The position numbers and the translations under genes are program-made. A stretch of 64,000 bases of DNA from Paractinoplanes polyasparticus (GTDB lineage: Bacteria; Actinomycetota; Actinomycetes; Mycobacteriales; Micromonosporaceae): NCBI RefSeq assembly GCF_019710575.1, contig NZ_JAHWFK010000051.1, positions 1-64,000 on the forward strand. The letters are read 5' to 3'. The first letter of the stretch is position 1. Each line of letters opens with the position of its first letter. Below the pieces are notes generated by a model. It was not told the DNA's origin. It was given only the letters and a program-made list of their open reading frames with translations, and made no database searches. Shown here piece by piece: positions 42,809-51,083 of the stretch.

Positions 42809-44356
42809 CTAGCGACCCGTCTTTCGCTGGTAGGCACGCCAAGTCGTTGCCCTGGTCTTCGGGTCGTCGGTCGCGCCGGGCTTCAGGCGGTGAACCGCTT
42901 GTTTGTGCGGCGCCGTCTTGACGTGTTCCGGATTCGAGTAGGCCTCGTCGGAGACCTTCTTGACGACGGCGACCCAGGTGTCGAGCGCCTCCTTGCCCCA
43001 CATCTCGCCGGCTTCCGGCGTGAACGGCTCGGGAAGCAGCCAGGGTTCGTGGCTGGTCCACGGCGGGTCGATGCCGAAGTCGGACATCCGGTTCTGGACG
43101 TCGTGGATGTCGACTCCGGTCTCCTCCTTGAGCGTCTGCAGGCTGTAGCGCGTCATCTCGAGACGCGGCAACTTGGCGTCGGGGTGTGACCGCGTCACCC
43201 CTCGGATGGCGACCAAGCCCTTCTCCATGTAGTTGTTGGCCAGAACGGAGAGGTCCGAGACCTGCGCCATCCCCTCGGCGCCCATCGCTCGCGACCAGGC
43301 GTAGGCCTTCACCACCACCGGTACGTTGCCCCAGAACTCGCGGATCTTGCCGATGCTCTGGGGCCGGTCGTAGTCGAGGTGGTACCGACTGCCGTCAAAG
43401 GCGACCAGCGGCGACGGGAGGAAGGGCGCGAGCTCGGCCGAGCAGCCGTAGGCGCCGACCGCCGGCCCGCCGACACCGCTCTTGGGTGCTCCGAACGTCT
43501 TGTGGAGCATGAACATGCAGGCGTCGAATCCGAGCTCGCGCGGCCGGAGCTTTCCGATGATGCCGTTGAAGTTCGCGCTGTCGTGGAAGGCGAGCCCGCC
43601 CGCCTCGTGGACGATGCGCACCCAATCCTTCATCTCCGGGTTGTAGACGCCCATGTCGTCGGGGTTGTTGACCATCAGGGCCGCCGTGCGGTTCGAGACC
43701 GCGGCCTTCAGCGCGTCCAGGGACGGATAGCCGTTCTCGTCGAGCGGAAGAGTGACGACCTTGAACCCCGCCATGGCCGCGGTCGCGGCGCTGGAGGGAT
43801 GGGTCTGGATCGTGGTGATGATTTCGTCGCGCTGTTCCAGCTCGCCCCGGGCCGCGTGATAGCCGCGCGTCACGGCGCAGTTGACGTACGCCGCCTCGGC
43901 GCCGCCACCCGCCTGGAAGACGAACTGATCCATGCCCGAGACTTCGCGCAGGATCAGGTCCATGCCGTGGACGATTTCCAGCGTTCCTTGCAGGGTGTCC
44001 TCGTGCTGGAGCGGATGCACCTCGGTGATCTCCGGCCGCCAGGCGATCGCCTCGTTGACCGCCGGGTTGTACTTCATCGTGCAGGTGCCGAACAGGCTGA
44101 TCCCCATCATGCCGAGTGTCTGCTGGGACAGACGCAGATAGTGATAGAGCACCTCCGGCTCGGAGAGCTCCGGCAGGGCGGGTCGATCGCGGCGGCGCAC
44201 CGCATCCGGAATCAGGTTCTCGGCCGGACCGACGCCGGCCTCGATCTCGTCCTCCACTCGCGAGAACAGCACCCCGCGGCGGCCCGCAGCGCCCATCTGG
44301 TGGATGACCGGCTCGCGCCAGACCGGAGCTTGAAGTTCCTTCGGTTCGATGCTCAT
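42809..44356 (-). CDS. Divergent GcvPB-like PLP enzyme subunit
   Basis: 515 residues of the glycine dehydrogenase (decarboxylating) subunit 2 fold. It keeps SLFGTCTMKYNP and the PLP lysine in MLHKTFGAP (Lys286). The invariant glycine loop after HKTF, normally PHGGGGPG, is here PKSGVGGPA. DGANLN is changed to DSANFN, and the QPxAGAQGE-like region is QAGGGAEAAYVN. The C-terminus is a normal length. It overlaps the GcvPA-like gene by four bases. The family decarboxylates glycine onto lipoyl-GcvH; these changes and the lack of gcvH/gcvT nearby suggest another amino-acid or amine substrate (inference). Confidence 0.8.
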   Translation of the reverse strand: MSIEPKELQAPVWREPVIHQMGAAGRRGVLFSRVEDEIEAGVGPAENLIPDAVRRRDRPALPELSEPEVLYHYLRLSQQTLGMMGISLFGTCTMKYNPAVNEAIAWRPEITEVHPLQHEDTLQGTLEIVHGMDLILREVSGMDQFVFQAGGGAEAAYVNCAVTRGYHAARGELEQRDEIITTIQTHPSSAATAAMAGFKVVTLPLDENGYPSLDALKAAVSNRTAALMVNNPDDMGVYNPEMKDWVRIVHEAGGLAFHDSANFNGIIGKLRPRELGFDACMFMLHKTFGAPKSGVGGPAVGAYGCSAELAPFLPSPLVAFDGSRYHLDYDRPQSIGKIREFWGNVPVVVKAYAWSRAMGAEGMAQVSDLSVLANNYMEKGLVAIRGVTRSHPDAKLPRLEMTRYSLQTLKEETGVDIHDVQNRMSDFGIDPPWTSHEPWLLPEPFTPEAGEMWGKEALDTWVAVVKKVSDEAYSNPEHVKTAPHKQAVHRLKPGATDDPKTRATTWRAYQRKTGR

Positions 44357-45756
44357 CGCGCGATCGCCTTCGTGAGGGCGCCGACCAGGCGCTCGATGTC
44401 GTTCCCGGTGTGGATCTCGGTGACGCAGTACAGAGCGCTCGCGCCCAGCTCGGGGAATTCCTGCGACAAGTCCTTGCCGCCGAAGATGCCTTGCTCCCGC
44501 AGGGATTCGTTGATCTCGCCGACTTCTCGTCCGGTGCCGTCGAAGTTGACGACGAACTCCTTGAAGAAACCGGAGGGGAAGGTGACGCGTACGCCTTCGA
44601 TCTCGGCCAGCCGCCGCGCCGCGTGATGCGCCCGCTGCAGGATGACGCCGCCGATCTCCTCGAAACCCTTCGGGCCCATCAGCGCCATGTAGGTGGCTGC
44701 GGCGATCGCCCACATGTAGACCGAGTGACCGGTCCAGTCGTTGCCCTTGTCGCGCTTGCCGTAGGAGGACTGCTCGAACAGGCTCAAGCCGAAGCCGTAC
44801 TCGCCGGGTTCGATCGTCTCGGCAATGCTGATGAGCAGCGACGGGTACTGGTGTGCGTAGCGATCGTCGTCGCGGGTCGCGATGAAGCCGCCGACCCCGC
44901 CGCCGGTGTTCAGATGGACGCCGAGGGGCTGGATCGTGCCGACGACGATGTCCGCGCCGTAACTGACGGGCGCGGCGAGCACGCCGAGCGAGAGGGGATC
45001 GACCCCGACGATCAGCTCCGCGCCCGCCGCGTGGGTGATCTCGGCGATGGCGGCGCCCTGATGCTCGATCACGCCGAGATAGGAGGGCGTCTCGAAATAG
45101 ACGGCGGCCGTCTGGTCGCCGACCGCGGCGCGCAGGTCGTCCAAGTCCATCAAGCCGGTGGCCGGGTCGTAGCCGACGAGGCGGACGGCGATGTGGTTGG
45201 CCATCTCGACCGGCTCGCAGTAGTTGCGGATCACCGAGAGGCGCTCGGGGTCGATGGCCCGCACGACCGCGACCTCGTTGCGCCCCGTCAGGCGGGAAGC
45301 CATCCGTAGCGCCGACCCGGCCGCGCCGCCCCAACTGCGCACCGGCAGACCGACCATGTCCAGATCGACGAGCTCGGCCAGCTGGCTGCAGAATTCGAAC
45401 CATGCCTGGTTGCGGCCGTGGTCGGAGCTGGGTTCGCCGAAGACCGAGGTGAGCCATTCGTTACGGCGGACCACCTCGTCGCAGGCGGCGGGCACGTGAT
45501 GCTGCCAGCTGCCCGCGCCGAGGAAGTTGAGGTTCTGCTCGACGGTCCGGTTCTTCGCCAGGATGCCGATGAGATGCCGGGTGAGTTCGCTCTCGCTGAG
45601 CGCGGGCGGCAGGTCGATGGGACGGTTGGTGCGGTGGTCGGCCGGGATCTGGCTGAACAGCTCTTCGATGCTGTCGGCGCCGATCGCGTCGAGCATCTCC
45701 CGCTGAAGTTCGGGCACCGAGTTGGCCATGTACGGATGTGCCGTGCTTTCTCCCAT
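44353..45756 (-). CDS. Divergent GcvPA-like PLP enzyme subunit
   Basis: 467 residues of the subunit 1 type. The FLGAGSWQHHVPAACDEVV opening is conserved. The next motif of true GcvPA, YTPYQ.EISQG, is replaced by VFGEPSSDHGRNQ, and DGATALAEA by SWGGAAGSALRMA. The central AELIVGVDPLSLGVLAAPVS, GADIVVGTIQPLG and FGL..FEQSSYGKRDKGN regions remain. ATG 45754-45756 has GGAG seven bases upstream. It probably forms an alpha2beta2 enzyme with the next gene. Actinomycetes normally carry one-chain GcvP, so a two-subunit set is unusual here. Confidence 0.8.
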   Translation of the reverse strand: MGESTAHPYMANSVPELQREMLDAIGADSIEELFSQIPADHRTNRPIDLPPALSESELTRHLIGILAKNRTVEQNLNFLGAGSWQHHVPAACDEVVRRNEWLTSVFGEPSSDHGRNQAWFEFCSQLAELVDLDMVGLPVRSWGGAAGSALRMASRLTGRNEVAVVRAIDPERLSVIRNYCEPVEMANHIAVRLVGYDPATGLMDLDDLRAAVGDQTAAVYFETPSYLGVIEHQGAAIAEITHAAGAELIVGVDPLSLGVLAAPVSYGADIVVGTIQPLGVHLNTGGGVGGFIATRDDDRYAHQYPSLLISIAETIEPGEYGFGLSLFEQSSYGKRDKGNDWTGHSVYMWAIAAATYMALMGPKGFEEIGGVILQRAHHAARRLAEIEGVRVTFPSGFFKEFVVNFDGTGREVGEINESLREQGIFGGKDLSQEFPELGASALYCVTEIHTGNDIERLVGALTKAIAR

Positions 45757-45793
45757 GAAAGGTCTCCTTCGTCGGGATGAGAAAGGGCAGCGG

Positions 45794-46924
45794 TCACGCC
45801 TCCACTTTGAAGAGCGTGCTGCGGTTGGGGCCGGTTTCGATCCGGACATAGCCGGCGAGCATCGCGTCCACCTCGGCGTCGCCGGTGTCCACGTGCAGTG
45901 ATGCGGTTTCGAGGGCGAGCAGCTTCTCCAGGCTGGAGATGACGATGATGTGGTCACGTCCGACCTGGCGGATCACTGCAGCGCTGATTTGCTGGTTACC
46001 CCGTCCGAACAGGCTGCCCTGGCCGCCGAGAACGCCGACCACGATCCACGTCTCCCGGCCCTGCATGAGGTCGAGAAGCGCTTGTTCGTCGAGGTCGGCG
46101 CCGACGGATTTGCCGTCCAGCACGGCATCGACGCCGAGCAGGGTCGAGGGCAGGTCGAGAGCATCGGCGACGCGACGTGTTGTCGTACCGGGACCGAGGA
46201 TGTAGAGGTGGCCGGGCTTCATGCCGGCTGCGACCTGCTGGGCCGCGAGACGCAGCGCGGTTTCGCCGCTCGCCCCCGATCCGGCTTTGGCATTCTGCGA
46301 CAGATGACGCTCGTACGGGCTACGGGCGTAGCCGTAGAGCCGTGCGGAAAGGCGATCGCCGCGAAAGGCGGCTTCGTCGAGGTCCATCACCTCGGCTTCG
46401 CGCAGCCGCGCCGCCGGACTGGCCGCGAGGAACAGGGTGGCGAGGTGTCCGGCATTGCGCGGGCTGGTGCCGAACACCGCGGAGTGCATCTTCACGCCGG
46501 CCGGCACGCCGAGCACGGGCACCCCGTCGCCCACCGCCGCCAGGACGTCGCGCGCCGTCCCGTCGCCGCCGACGAACAGGAGGAGATCGACCGAGCGCGC
46601 CGCCATGATCTCAGCCGCCGCTCGCGTGTCGGCGGACGTGGTCGGCCCGGGCCCCGGACTGTGCACCACCTCCACATCGAGACCGGCTGCGCGCGCCACA
46701 TCCTCGCCCAACTCGCCGGAACCGGTGAGAACACGCAACGGCGTCCCGATCTCGACCAGACGGTTCATCGCGCCGCGGGCGCGTTCCTCGGCGCCCGGGC
46801 GTGCGCCCCGTCGCCAGGCTTCTTGAAGGACGTCCTCGCCGTCGGTGCCCTTGAGCCCGACACTGCCGCCCATCCCCGCCACGGGATTGATGATGAGGCC
46901 GAGCGTTGCGCCTTGGGCTGTCAT
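45794..46924 (-). CDS. AcoX / ATP-NAD-kinase-family protein
   Basis: 376 residues. LIINPVAGMGGSVGLKGTDG opens the NAD-kinase-like fold. FVGGDGTARDVLAAV carries the GGDGT motif (119-123), and GVPAGVKMHSAVFGTSPRNA is the AcoX signature. In acetoin clusters AcoX has no established reaction; the fold phosphorylates NAD or a related ligand. It has GAGGAG before the ATG and is the first gene of the operon, 37 bases ahead of the GcvPA-like gene. Its link to PLP subunits suggests that cofactor or substrate phosphorylation is part of the pathway (inference). Confidence 0.8.
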   Translation of the reverse strand: MTAQGATLGLIINPVAGMGGSVGLKGTDGEDVLQEAWRRGARPGAEERARGAMNRLVEIGTPLRVLTGSGELGEDVARAAGLDVEVVHSPGPGPTTSADTRAAAEIMAARSVDLLLFVGGDGTARDVLAAVGDGVPVLGVPAGVKMHSAVFGTSPRNAGHLATLFLAASPAARLREAEVMDLDEAAFRGDRLSARLYGYARSPYERHLSQNAKAGSGASGETALRLAAQQVAAGMKPGHLYILGPGTTTRRVADALDLPSTLLGVDAVLDGKSVGADLDEQALLDLMQGRETWIVVGVLGGQGSLFGRGNQQISAAVIRQVGRDHIIVISSLEKLLALETASLHVDTGDAEVDAMLAGYVRIETGPNRSTLFKVEA

Positions 46925-47262: not shown

Positions 47263-48015
47263 TCAGATTGACGCCGAGTGCTCACCGTCCTGCAGAAGCC
47301 TTTGTGCGAGAACGCCAGCCCGTGATAAAACGTCGATTTGGGCGGGGTTATAAAGTTCCACCACTGCCTGAATCACCGTCTGATGCGTGACGCCCGTATT
47401 TTTCGACAGGTGTCCCACCGGGTTTCTCAGCCATGGATAGTCAACAAGATTCTGCGCGAGAGCCGGCGCCAGCCGTTCTGCGAGCCGCTGCCGAGTGTTC
47501 TCGTCCGCGTCCGCCGGTAGAGCGTTGATTTCGTTCCCGACAGCGGCGGATTCGGCATCGACCTCCACCATTCGCCGCAAGTCCGCCAGAGCGGCCTCGT
47601 CGTAAAGCTGCGTATAGACGTGAAGAATCGAGTTGTCCGTATCGGACAGGTGTGACGCGACGGACTCGAACCCCGCCGGTGCATCGGCCGGCGCGTCGCC
47701 ATGCAGGATCGCCGCGATGTCGGCTCGAGCCTGCTGTATGTGCTCGATGCTGGCCGCGAGCCGGCGATCGAGCTCCTGCAGCGCATCCGGTGTGCCTTCA
47801 CCTCCCGCGCTGACCTCATCCACCTTTGAGAGTGGCAGGCCCAGATCGGCCAATCGCCGTATCCGCAGCAGCCGTACCAGATGCCGTACCCCGTACCTTT
47901 TGTACCCGTTGTACCCGCGGTCGGGCTCGTCCAGCAGGCCAAGCCGGTGATAGTGCCGAATAGTGTTCACCGTGGCGCCTGCTAGTTCGGCAAGCTCGCG
48001 GGTGCTCCAAGGCAT
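47263..48015 (-). CDS. MerR-family regulator with a large effector domain
   Basis: 250 residues from ATG 48013-48015 after AAGGAA. The MerR winged helix is WSTRELAELAGATVNTIRHY then HRLGLLDEPDRGYNGYKRYG, followed by a dimerisation helix. No metal-binding cysteines are present in the effector part. The C-terminal 150 residues are mostly helical (DNSILHVYTQLYDEAALADL, RQRLAERLAPALAQNLVDYP) and suggest an organic effector. It is on the same strand as, and directly upstream of, the AcoX-GcvP-like operon, whose promoter has the MerR architecture. Confidence 0.85.
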   Translation of the reverse strand: MPWSTRELAELAGATVNTIRHYHRLGLLDEPDRGYNGYKRYGVRHLVRLLRIRRLADLGLPLSKVDEVSAGGEGTPDALQELDRRLAASIEHIQQARADIAAILHGDAPADAPAGFESVASHLSDTDNSILHVYTQLYDEAALADLRRMVEVDAESAAVGNEINALPADADENTRQRLAERLAPALAQNLVDYPWLRNPVGHLSKNTGVTHQTVIQAVVELYNPAQIDVLSRAGVLAQRLLQDGEHSASI

Positions 48016-48341
48016 GGGCTGTTCCTTGTCTGAAAGCGCTGCGGACAAGACAGGTCGGACATCGGATGGTTCGTCCGGTCGGAAGTCGTTCGCCGCCCGA
48101 CCACGGAGCTACTGAGTCCATCGGCCCGGATACGGCAAGCCGCCGGTTGCCCGGGCGTGGCGGTATCAGGCTCACACCGACGGCCGCGCCGTCGCGTCGG
48201 TAACAACCGCGTAGTTGTCACGGCGTGGCACCCCGGGAAGCCGCCCAGGTGGCGGGTGATGATCCGGAGCTATCGCGTGCCGCGTCCGGGACGACTACCG
48301 TGTCGGCTATCTGAACTGCGGCTTTGACAGAGGACGTTCTG
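48016..48341. other. Divergent intergenic region between MerR and LuxR genes
   Basis: No coding sequence is supported. GTAACAAC-N6-GTTGTCAC (about 48209-48230) is an 8-bp near-perfect dyad and may be an operator. GAGG stands eight bases before the GTG at 48342. Confidence 0.35.
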
Positions 48342-51083
48342 GTGGATCTCGTGGGCCGGCGCGTGGAGCGTGCAACGGTCGAGAAGTTCCTCTCGCTGGC
48401 GCGGGTCGGGCGCAGCGGCTCTCTGGTGGTGCGCGGGGAAGCCGGGATCGGGAAGACCGCCGTGCTCGAGCACGCCCGGCAGACGGCACTCGCCGCCGGC
48501 TTCCGAGTGGAGTCCTCGGTCGGCGTCGAGTCCGAGACGCAGTTCGCCTTCGCAGGGCTGCACCAGCTGTGTGCGCCCCTGCTGGATCGCACCGGCGTGC
48601 TGTCCGAGCCGCAGCGGGTCGCTCTCGGCGTGGCGTTCGGACTCCACGGTGGCGCCGCGCCGGACCGGTTCCTGGTCGGGTTGGCCATCCTGAACCTGAT
48701 GGCTGAGGTCGCCGAGAGAGAGCCGTTGCTGTGTCTGGTCGATGACGCACAGTGGCTGGATGAGGCGTCAGCACAGGTCCTGACCTTCGTGGCCCGGCGT
48801 GTGGGGGCCGAAAGGCTGGCCCTCGTGTTCGGGCTGCGCGACATCGACGACAGCGACCGGCTTCCGTTCACGGGGTTGCCGGAGCTACGTCTGGAACGGC
48901 TCGGCGCGTCCGATGCGCGTGCGCTGCTCAGTGCTGCGGTGCGGACCCCGCTGGACGAGGGGGTGCGCGAACGGATCCTCGCCGAAGCGAGCGGCAACCC
49001 GTTGGCGCTGCTGGAACTGCCCCGCAACATTCGGTTGGCCGACTTCGCGGGCGGGTTCGAGCTGCCCGACGTGCTCGACGTCCCGCACCGCATCGAGGAG
49101 AGCTTCCGCCGCCGTTCGGCCAGCCTGCCGCCCGAGACGCAGTTGCTGCTGCTGGTTGCCGCGTCCGAACCGACGGGTGACGTGGCGTTGCTGTGGCGCG
49201 CGGCCGCGCGTCTGAACCTCGCTCGTGAGGCTGCAGTGCCCGCGGAGGCCGCCGGGCTGCTGGAGACCGGCGTGCGGGTACGGTTCCGCCACCCGCTGGT
49301 GCGGTCGGCAGTGTATCGAGCAGCCACGCCGCCGGACCGTCGCCGCGCCCACGGCGCGCTGGCCGACGCGACCGACCCGAAGGCCGACCCGGACCGCCGC
49401 GCCTGGCAACGCGCGCAGGCGGTGCTCGGAGTTGACGAAGAAGCTGCCGAAGGGTTGGAGCGCTCGGCCGAACGAGCGCGAGCCCGCGGGGGAGTGGCCG
49501 CCGCGGCCGCGTTCCTGCAGCGCGCATCCGAGCTGACGCCGGAACCTGCGCTTCGCGCGAAACGCGCATTGGACGCAGCGCAAGCCAAGCATGAGGCCGG
49601 TGCGACCGAGACCGCCCTCGAGCTGCTGGCGGTTGCGGCCGCCGGACCGTTGGACGCCCTGCCACGCGCCCGCGTCGAGTTGCTCCGCGCCCAGATTGCG
49701 TTCTACCAGAGCCGAGGCAGCGACGTGCCCGGGATGCTGCTCGCCGCCGCTGAGACACTCGCCCCTCTGGACCCGGCGCTGGCCCGCGAAACCTATCTCC
49801 ACGCGATCGATGCCGCGATCCACGCCGGTCGCCTTGCTCGCGGCCGCGGGGCGCTGGAGGCAGCCGAAACTGCCCTCGGCGCGCCCGCGTCCTCGAAGCC
49901 GCCGCAGCCGGTCGATCTGTTGCTGGACGGACTGGCCACGAGGTTCACGCAGGGGTACGAGGCAAGTGTCATCCCGCTGCAGGGTGCACTCGAGACGCTG
50001 CGCGACCACGACTCCGGAGCCGGCGACAGCGACCGCCGCTGGCTGTGGTTGGCCTGCCACGTCGCGGCGATGCTGTGGGATGACGAGGCACTCTACGTAC
50101 TGGCAGACCGCGCGGTCCGGCTCTCCCGCGAGGCCGGCGCGCTGTCCATGCTTCCCGCCGCGCTCAACGCGGTTGCCTCAGTGCTCGTGCTGACCGGCGA
50201 CCTCGCCCGTGCCGCCGAGCTGGCCGCGGAGGAAACCGCGATCACGCAGGCGACGGGGGCTCCGCCGCTGCCCAACGCCCGGCTCATGCTGGCTGCCTGG
50301 CGTGGCCACGAGCCCGAAACGCTGGAACTGTACGCGGCCATGGTCGAAGAGGCGACGGGGCGGGGCGAGGGTGCCACGGTCGGCCTGGCCCAGGCCACGC
50401 TCGCAGCGCTGCACAACGGTCTGGGCAATTACGACGACGCGTTCGCCGCCGCGCAACCGCCGTGGCAGTACGACGACTTGGCGTACAGCAGTCTGGCCCT
50501 GCCCGAGCTCATCGAAGCGGCATCCCGTGCCGGTGAGCCGAAACGTGCGGCCGCCGCGCTGGAGCAGCTCAACTCCCGGGCCCGTGCCAGTGGGACTCAG
50601 TTTGCCCTGGGGTTGCTCGCGCGCTCACGTGCCCTGCTGACCACTGGTCCTGCCGCCGAGGAGCACTACCGCCAGGCGATCGAGCGGCTCACCAACTGCC
50701 GGATGGCCGTCTACCTCGCCCGCACCCACCTCGTCTACGGCGAATGGCTACGCCGCGAACGTCGCCGCCAGGAGGCCCGCGATCAGCTCCGCACCGCCCA
50801 CAAGCTGTTGTCGGACATGGGCGCGGAAGCGTTCGCGGCGCGCGCCGCCCGCGAGCTGAGCGCCGCCGGTGAGCACCCGAGCAAACGGAACGCCCAGCCC
50901 GCCGACGCGCTCACCGCCCACGAACTGCACATCGCACGCCTCGTGGCAACCGGAGCAACCTCCCGTGAGGTCGGCGCACAGCTGTTCCTCAGCCCACGGA
51001 CCATCGAAACCCACCTGCGCAACATCTTCCGCAAGCTGGGCATCACCTCACGCCGCGAACTCAAAGAACTCCAACTTCCCTGA
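48342..51083 (+). CDS. Large ATP-binding LuxR regulator (LAL-like), copy 1
   Basis: 913 residues. Walker A is GEAGIGKTAVLEHA near residue 35, Walker B is LLCLVDDAQWLDEAS, and a STAND/AAA-type ATPase spans about 1-300. A long helical, TPR-like middle of about 500 residues follows. The C-terminal LuxR helix-turn-helix is LTAHELHIARLVATGATSRE and FLSPRTIETHLRNIFRKLGI. This is the MalT/LAL architecture: ATP and ligand drive assembly on DNA. The GTG at 48342 has GAGG eight bases upstream; a TTG 18 bases earlier is less likely. A very similar gene faces it at 58220-60970. Confidence 0.9.
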   Translation: MDLVGRRVERATVEKFLSLARVGRSGSLVVRGEAGIGKTAVLEHARQTALAAGFRVESSVGVESETQFAFAGLHQLCAPLLDRTGVLSEPQRVALGVAFGLHGGAAPDRFLVGLAILNLMAEVAEREPLLCLVDDAQWLDEASAQVLTFVARRVGAERLALVFGLRDIDDSDRLPFTGLPELRLERLGASDARALLSAAVRTPLDEGVRERILAEASGNPLALLELPRNIRLADFAGGFELPDVLDVPHRIEESFRRRSASLPPETQLLLLVAASEPTGDVALLWRAAARLNLAREAAVPAEAAGLLETGVRVRFRHPLVRSAVYRAATPPDRRRAHGALADATDPKADPDRRAWQRAQAVLGVDEEAAEGLERSAERARARGGVAAAAAFLQRASELTPEPALRAKRALDAAQAKHEAGATETALELLAVAAAGPLDALPRARVELLRAQIAFYQSRGSDVPGMLLAAAETLAPLDPALARETYLHAIDAAIHAGRLARGRGALEAAETALGAPASSKPPQPVDLLLDGLATRFTQGYEASVIPLQGALETLRDHDSGAGDSDRRWLWLACHVAAMLWDDEALYVLADRAVRLSREAGALSMLPAALNAVASVLVLTGDLARAAELAAEETAITQATGAPPLPNARLMLAAWRGHEPETLELYAAMVEEATGRGEGATVGLAQATLAALHNGLGNYDDAFAAAQPPWQYDDLAYSSLALPELIEAASRAGEPKRAAAALEQLNSRARASGTQFALGLLARSRALLTTGPAAEEHYRQAIERLTNCRMAVYLARTHLVYGEWLRRERRRQEARDQLRTAHKLLSDMGAEAFAARAARELSAAGEHPSKRNAQPADALTAHELHIARLVATGATSREVGAQLFLSPRTIETHLRNIFRKLGITSRRELKELQLP

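Follow-up and report, generated by a model that had tools for sequence, protein, structure and literature searches.

A conserved, mobile gene triad from Paractinoplanes polyasparticus pairs GcvPA/GcvPB-like paralogues with an NAD-kinase-fold kinase

Three adjacent genes at positions 42,809 to 46,924 (minus strand) of Paractinoplanes polyasparticus contig NZ_JAHWFK010000051.1 (assembly GCF_019710575.1), whose first 64,000 nucleotides we analysed and refer to throughout as the window, encode a kinase of the NAD-kinase/diacylglycerol-kinase fold and two proteins resembling GcvPA and GcvPB, the subunits of the split glycine decarboxylase (P-protein). We find that this triad is a conserved, mobile paralogue family that databases name glycine dehydrogenase. 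We consider it rather probable that the GcvPA/GcvPB-like pair, with its linked kinase, is functional and is an ancient paralogue of the split enzyme, remodelled to act on some non-glycine amino acid. The family is represented in at least 80 sequenced loci, and if the GcvPA/GcvPB name is wrong, metabolic models of their hosts count a spurious second glycine decarboxylase. No published account of the triad was found among the papers listed by searches of the open-licence literature.

A family apart from canonical P-proteins

The tight packing of the three genes described in an earlier, sequence-only reading of the window was confirmed, with a 37-bp gap followed by a 4-bp ATGA overlap, and all three reading frames are open. 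Pfam domains assigned to the triad are NAD_kinase, GDC-P, and class V aminotransferase, and the closest solved structures of the PB-like and PA-like proteins are the two subunits of the 1wyt glycine decarboxylase (E 3e-72 and 7e-59, respectively). The predicted model of the PB-like protein, which was used for fold only because its mean predicted local distance difference test score (pLDDT) is 70.6 and its N- and C-terminal parts are weak, matched 1wyt_B with a Z of 38.3 (38.3–38.8 across split P-protein structures). The pair is like the split P-protein (1wyt; GCSPA-GCSPB model 9a73) in its adjacent two-subunit genes, its fold, its pyridoxal 5'-phosphate (PLP) lysine and PLP-contact motifs, and its passing of the NCBI cut-offs, but unlike it in forming a clade of its own, in many residue replacements, in the absence of linked gcvH and gcvT, and in the presence of a linked kinase.

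The separate clade proposed by the earlier reading was recovered in every tree. Among 68 PB rows (52 family, 5 split, and 11 one-chain GcvP), all 52 family rows lie on one side of a branch of length 2.03 with support 100, and two further trees, in which the split canonical rows numbered 10 (half of them from triad genomes), again set the family rows (19 for PB, 18 for PA) apart from the canonical ones with support 100 each; these support values are from the Shimodaira–Hasegawa-like approximate likelihood ratio test (SH-aLRT) in a quick search, with few canonical rows (split ones 5 or 10, one-chain ones 5 to 11), several of them on long branches flagged by the program. Neither PB nor PA was placed within the canonical P-protein clade. 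A canonical GcvP was also present besides the triad in all 36 of the genomes searched for GDC-P, out of 40 triad genomes, with a further match of more than 380 bits taken as canonical GcvP. The window's own genome carries a one-chain canonical GcvP (937-amino-acid frame) on another contig, together with GcvH and three GcvT-family matches. Because a canonical GcvP accompanies the triad in every triad genome searched and the triad proteins form their own clade, we regard them as paralogues despite their passing the NCBI cut-offs. The combination that the sequence-only reading had set as its own disproof, canonical placement with no other gcvP in the genome, did not occur.

A scan of genome contigs gave 208 pattern matches, 200 of which encode relatives at any distance, and the best 80 loci (at least 61% identity) were used for linkage counts, which were made with tblastn. 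The hosts of these 80 loci are Actinomycetota, Pseudomonadota, and one Pedobacter. Members from Rhodococcus, Sphingomonas, Pseudomonas, Pedobacter, and the like share 77–82% identity with the window, a level that, across such distant hosts, points to horizontal transfer. Members are held by 8 of 23 matching plasmid records (53–82% identity), and the triad was present in 2 of 24 genomes searched from the window's genus and in 2 of 296 across its phylum, the window's own included. The PA-like gene was detected in 79 of the 80 related loci, the remaining one (L074) starting at PB. Linkage to the kinase, whose conservation the earlier reading had put up as a check, was found in 77 of the 80, 64 times on the same strand and 13 times on the opposite one. 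Ratios of nonsynonymous to synonymous substitution rates (dN/dS) against locus L034 were 0.13 for PB, 0.20 for PA, and 0.26 for the kinase, indicating purifying selection on the triad genes; these ratios, the open frames, and the kinase linkage kept across phyla make it extremely improbable that the genes are decaying, nonfunctional copies.

Residues of the active site

Residues through which a P-protein binds PLP are retained in the GcvPB-like subunit: the PLP lysine K286 with H285, T287, and F288, as well as H186 and the D259-x-A-N motif. The P-protein motifs PHGGGGPG, LNLHKTF, YTPYQPExSQG, and YDGATA, which we take to line the substrate site, are altered in the family, although one basal row, L124, keeps the canonical H/N/H of PB. 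Of the residues that both canonical groups conserve, PB retains 58 and has 29 replaced by other fixed residues, among them H281M, N283M, H292K, H400E, E401M, and H430D, while PA keeps 33 and has 15 replaced, among them D141S, R329Q, Q331S, H332Y, S340D, N341W, and the loss of one tyrosine. Position 276 of the GcvPA-like subunit, still a glutamine, is presumably the place matching the PLP lysine. Where sampled glycine decarboxylases have YTPYQPExSQG or letters near it, the GcvPA-like subunit has VFGEPSSDHG, and where they have YDGATA-like letters it has RSWGGAA, so the earlier statement that it lacks both motifs stands.

For the GcvPB-like subunit, the earlier reading had pointed to a retained PLP lysine, to PKSGVGG in place of the glycine-rich motif, and to DSAN in place of DGAN. 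The letters are present (HKTFGAPKSGVGGPA and DSANFN) and the lysine is kept, but the DSAN serine and the PKSGVGG insert are less diagnostic than claimed: in an 88-row family alignment, position 260 (the S of DSAN) is H in 65 rows, S in 13, A in 8, and Q in 2, so that serine is not typical of the family, and the one-residue insert of PKSGVGG occurs in 32 rows. The diagnostic changes are instead M281, M283, K292, R398, E400, R403, and H436, with R398, E400, R403, and H436 found in all 88 rows and K292 in 87. A 4241-bp contig (L124/L127, from G241) encodes PB and then the kinase on the same strand and has H/N/H beside the PLP lysine, yet it carries the new R398 and R403; it is a possible evolutionary intermediate.

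As the earlier reading had noted, gcvH, gcvT, and lpd are absent from the 64 kb, with no tblastn match at E ≤ 1e-3 for three GcvH, two GcvT, and two Lpd queries. Across 85 family loci, neither GcvH nor GcvT had a match at E ≤ 1e-4, and in a control for the linkage search GcvH was found in three of five canonical loci (L121, L122, and L123). The gcvT/gcvH linkage of P-proteins is thus absent from the family loci. The GcvP-like pair probably has no dedicated lipoyl-GcvH, and we infer that it may act independently of GcvH.

The linked kinase and its relatives near pdxB

The triad kinase (P0003) has the NAD-kinase fold and a GGDGT motif, scoring 69.8 bits against a cut-off of 25.5 for Pfam NAD_kinase. 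Its predicted model (mean pLDDT 90.7, predicted template modelling score 0.58) gave a Z of 11.4 to the NAD kinase 7qvs and of 11.6 to DgkB; against solved structures, the best hit of a profile search had an E of 0.029, and Foldseek alone returned none at E ≤ 0.001. Unlike NAD kinases, it falls far below the NCBIfam NAD kinase equivalog cut-offs (best 13.9 against 309 bits) and has invariant motifs of its own, of the GVKMHS and GRGNQ types. We know of no NAD kinase with these motifs. COG3199, which we take to be the label for this kinase family, had no mention that we could find in the open-licence literature.

The AcoX label given by the earlier reading was only partly right. Relatives of the triad kinase among 95 gammaproteobacteria gave E values of about 1e-97 to 1e-57, whereas AcoX proteins encoded beside acetoin dehydrogenase genes gave only 1e-4 to 1e-5, with a distant resemblance near GGDGT (E about 1e-5). 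A tree of 58 kinase rows (20 pdxB-type, 34 triad, and 4 AcoX) grouped the pdxB-type and triad kinases together with support 100 and placed the basal triad row L124 with the pdxB type, whereas the four AcoX rows lay on a far branch (long branches of 6.0 and 4.0). AcoX has acetoin dehydrogenase neighbours, but queries with AcoA and AcoB had no match at E ≤ 1e-5 in the 85 family loci. An acetoin AcoX was rejected on these grounds, so that the interpretation offered by the sequence-only reading holds for the separate clade, the kinase linkage, and the canonical GcvP elsewhere in the genome, and fails for the identity of the kinase. Weak matches to AcoC were present in L044 (E 1e-12) and L045 (E 1e-14), and a published report (PMC6722718) describes an acetoin operon that includes a gene for an ATP-NAD kinase.

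Outside the triad, the kinase has its closest relatives in gammaproteobacteria, where they are encoded near pdxB (L151–L170) and are 39–47% identical to the triad kinase. Of these 20 fetched loci, 19 have pdxB upstream of the kinase, on its strand and less than 1.5 kb away (none was found in L166), and the pdxB and kinase matches are less than 400 bp apart in 10; a check of PdxB models on one locus gave 444.5 against 434 bits for one model and a score under the cut-off of a second. No GcvPA/GcvPB match was found in the 20 loci. The two kinase types share 58 conserved positions, with no position at which each type is fixed (at 90%) for a residue of its own, and, judged from sequence, the reaction of the triad kinase is likely to be close or equal to that of the pdxB-type kinases. 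According to a second report, alternative B6 kinases remain to be found and the pdxB pathway passes through 4-phosphohydroxy-threonine (PMC9997740); the linkage to pdxB makes these kinases a concrete candidate for the missing alternative B6 kinases.

Proposed function and gene neighbourhoods

In the mechanism that we favour, the GcvPB-like subunit would bind PLP at K286, as its fold and the PLP site of the family predict, and the GcvPA-like subunit would form the other wall of the active site in a putative PA-PB complex. The pocket would be remodelled to accept a non-glycine amino acid that is probably larger or bears an extra acidic or phosphate group, as the newly conserved K292, R398, and R403 suggest. 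An external aldimine of this amino acid would then form, probably followed by decarboxylation or other C-alpha chemistry, and the enzyme probably belongs to a catabolic pathway for amino compounds that uses no dedicated lipoyl-GcvH. The kinase would either charge the cofactor pool or phosphorylate the substrate; given its kinship with the kinases near pdxB, a B6 vitamer or a 4-hydroxythreonine-like compound would be a more likely substrate than acetoin. The altered active site and the gene neighbours together suggest an amino-acid enzyme that is not a glycine decarboxylase, with a possible link to vitamin B6, and a lipoyl-independent derivative of the P-protein, if true, would be an example of the glycine cleavage scaffold re-used. 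A bolder version, which we hold to be unlikely, is that the triad represents a new, GcvH-independent class of GcvP-derived two-subunit PLP enzyme, that its kinase belongs to a new NAD-kinase-fold class and is also the missing B6 or 4-hydroxythreonine kinase near pdxB in many gammaproteobacteria, and that the whole is a mobile module in which a new decarboxylase is coupled to the supply of PLP or to phosphorylation of its substrate.

Several observations weigh against a non-glycine enzyme working with a dedicated kinase. Both subunits pass NCBI equivalog cut-offs (501.4 against 441 bits for GcvPB, 446 against 364 for GcvPA) and bear GcvPA/GcvPB names in five annotated plasmids; GcvH was present in all 40 triad genomes searched for it, out of 82 loci and genomes, so a housekeeping GcvH could still serve the pair; and Lpd-like flavoproteins are encoded in 3 of the 85 family loci (L040, L045, and L112). 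Taken with the intact PLP site, the cut-offs and the ubiquitous GcvH would fit a second, conditional P-protein that still decarboxylates glycine with borrowed housekeeping GcvH, GcvT, and Lpd, an explanation that we nevertheless judge improbable, because conserved positions beside the PLP lysine and in PA are now other fixed residues, none of the 85 loci has gcvT or gcvH, and each of the 36 genomes searched already has a canonical GcvP. The rebuilt pocket is itself open to some doubt, since the basal row L124 retains the canonical H/N/H at positions 281, 283, and 292, and the location of K292, R398, and R403 within the pocket is predicted from alignment. For the kinase, conservation is restricted to the pdxB type at 48 positions and to the triad type at 15; most triad rows, for example, have M, L, or V at R180 of the pdxB type and Y at E199, so the substrates of the two types may differ. 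The neighbours in the window's half of the family (28 loci) are varied and outline no pathway, and PA-PB pairs occur with no detected kinase in L075, L076, and the haloarchaeal plasmid L115.

One possibility, doubtful in our view, is that the kinase acts first, phosphorylating a 4-hydroxythreonine-like amino acid whose product the GcvP-like complex then decarboxylates or cleaves, with the new basic residues holding the phosphate. The near-constant kinase linkage, the near-invariant K292, R398, and R403, and a kin kinase near pdxB, whose pathway runs via a phosphorylated 4-hydroxythreonine (PMC9997740), would all suit such an order of events, but PA and PB kept without a detected kinase in L075, L076, and L115 speak against it. 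A little less doubtful, though still not probable, is that the kinase, as a new fold class among pyridoxal (B6-vitamer) kinases, supplies PLP in the triad and substitutes for PdxY near pdxB; this and the preceding explanation are versions of the non-glycine reading, and our confidences in them overlap with it. Besides the upstream pdxB in 19 of 20 loci, a genome census lends it some support: in a block of 57 genomes (59 over the Epd cut-off minus two triad genomes), six of the nine genomes with the kinase had no match that passed the PdxY/PdxK cut-off, as against two of the 48 without it (Fisher test, 5.8e-5, uncorrected for kinship), and in a second family, where 96 of 116 genomes have the kinase, none passed the PdxY cut-off and the single near match (G567) lacks the kinase. 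The association may nonetheless reflect common descent, as the tree included seven of the nine block kinases and grouped all seven in a single clade, and other counts run the opposite way. Three of the nine block genomes hold both the kinase and PdxY/PdxK, both triad genomes of the block have PdxY, and 19 of the 20 kinase-less genomes of the second family have no PdxY-type match at E ≤ 1e-40. Outside the block, 19 of 36 genomes are without the kinase, and PdxY is missing from 18 of these as well, the PdxY cut-off being passed only by G463, itself without the kinase. To our knowledge, moreover, B6 kinases are unusual in catabolic operons, which also counts against a pyridoxal kinase. An erythronate kinase replacing Epd was not supported, because Epd is over the cut-off in all 59 block genomes, with or without the kinase, a test confined to a block that the Epd cut-off itself defines and uninformative for the other 36 genomes, which fall below it.

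Evidence that the proposed non-glycine enzyme has a catabolic role comes from the more distant half of the family, whose neighbours suggest degradation of an amino compound. Counts of neighbours are approximate, as a simple gene caller was used and some loci are mis-framed, and names are based on one representative per cluster, mostly below NCBIfam cut-offs, assigned by eye, or taken from annotated plasmids. In the 52 more distant loci, we found DapA-like proteins (30), flavin adenine dinucleotide (FAD) amino-acid-oxidase-like proteins (28), 3-hydroxyacyl-CoA-dehydrogenase-like proteins (23), old yellow enzymes (20), polar amino-acid binding proteins (16), 2Fe-2S/FAD proteins (16), IclR-like regulators (15), and class III aminotransferases (12), with succinate semialdehyde dehydrogenase and transporters also among the clusters. 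A DapA-like or FAD-oxidase-like gene is present in 34 of the 80 loci, and this type of cluster is repeated in two annotated plasmids. No single known pathway fits the distant-half clusters; hydroxyproline, opine, ectoine, and carnitine routes, considered with no gene-by-gene search, each seemed short of key genes. Recurrent neighbours in the 28 close loci are acyl-CoA synthetases (13) and TetR-like regulators (10, by eye), and amino acid-polyamine-organocation (APC) permeases occur in two annotated plasmids of this half.

Table 1. Triad genes and nearby regulators in the window
Feature	Coordinates	Strand	Remarks
Kinase, NAD-kinase/diacylglycerol-kinase-fold, 376 amino acids	45794-46924	minus	GGDGT motif; kin of kinases near pdxB
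GcvPA-like subunit, 467 amino acids	44353-45756	minus	Lacks YTPYQPExSQG and DGATA; Q276 kept as in canonical GcvPA
GcvPB-like subunit, 515 amino acids, PLP-binding partner	42809-44356	minus	K286, H186, and D259 kept; many replacements around them
MerR-type regulator, upstream of the triad	47263-48048	minus	Context, membership uncertain; homologue (E ≤ 1e-30) in 3 of 80 related loci
Large regulator, 919 amino acids, ATPase and LuxR-like by eye	48324-51083	plus	Context, membership uncertain; homologues in 4 of 80 loci

Homologues of the 919-amino-acid regulator (Table 1) are found in L034, L041, L042, and L045, from Actinoplanes, Nocardioides, and two Luteimonas strains, and the Luteimonas copies are 63–70% identical to it, as if the regulator were co-travelling with the triad. 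Two plasmids carry pairs in other settings. On a Natronosalvus halobius plasmid (L115, 12490-15542), a divergent PA-PB pair of 53–55% identity is surrounded by peptidases, a gamma-glutamyltransferase, and a dipeptide transporter. On a Deinococcus plasmid (L120, 2059-7080), the genes after a GcvPA/GcvPB pair encode a MOSC protein and a class III aminotransferase, and the 8.4 kb contain neither gcvT nor gcvH; this pair possibly has another role outside glycine cleavage. Finally, frames resembling class A beta-lactamases (by eye) lie less than 8 kb from the triad in L039 and L086, in two unrelated hosts.

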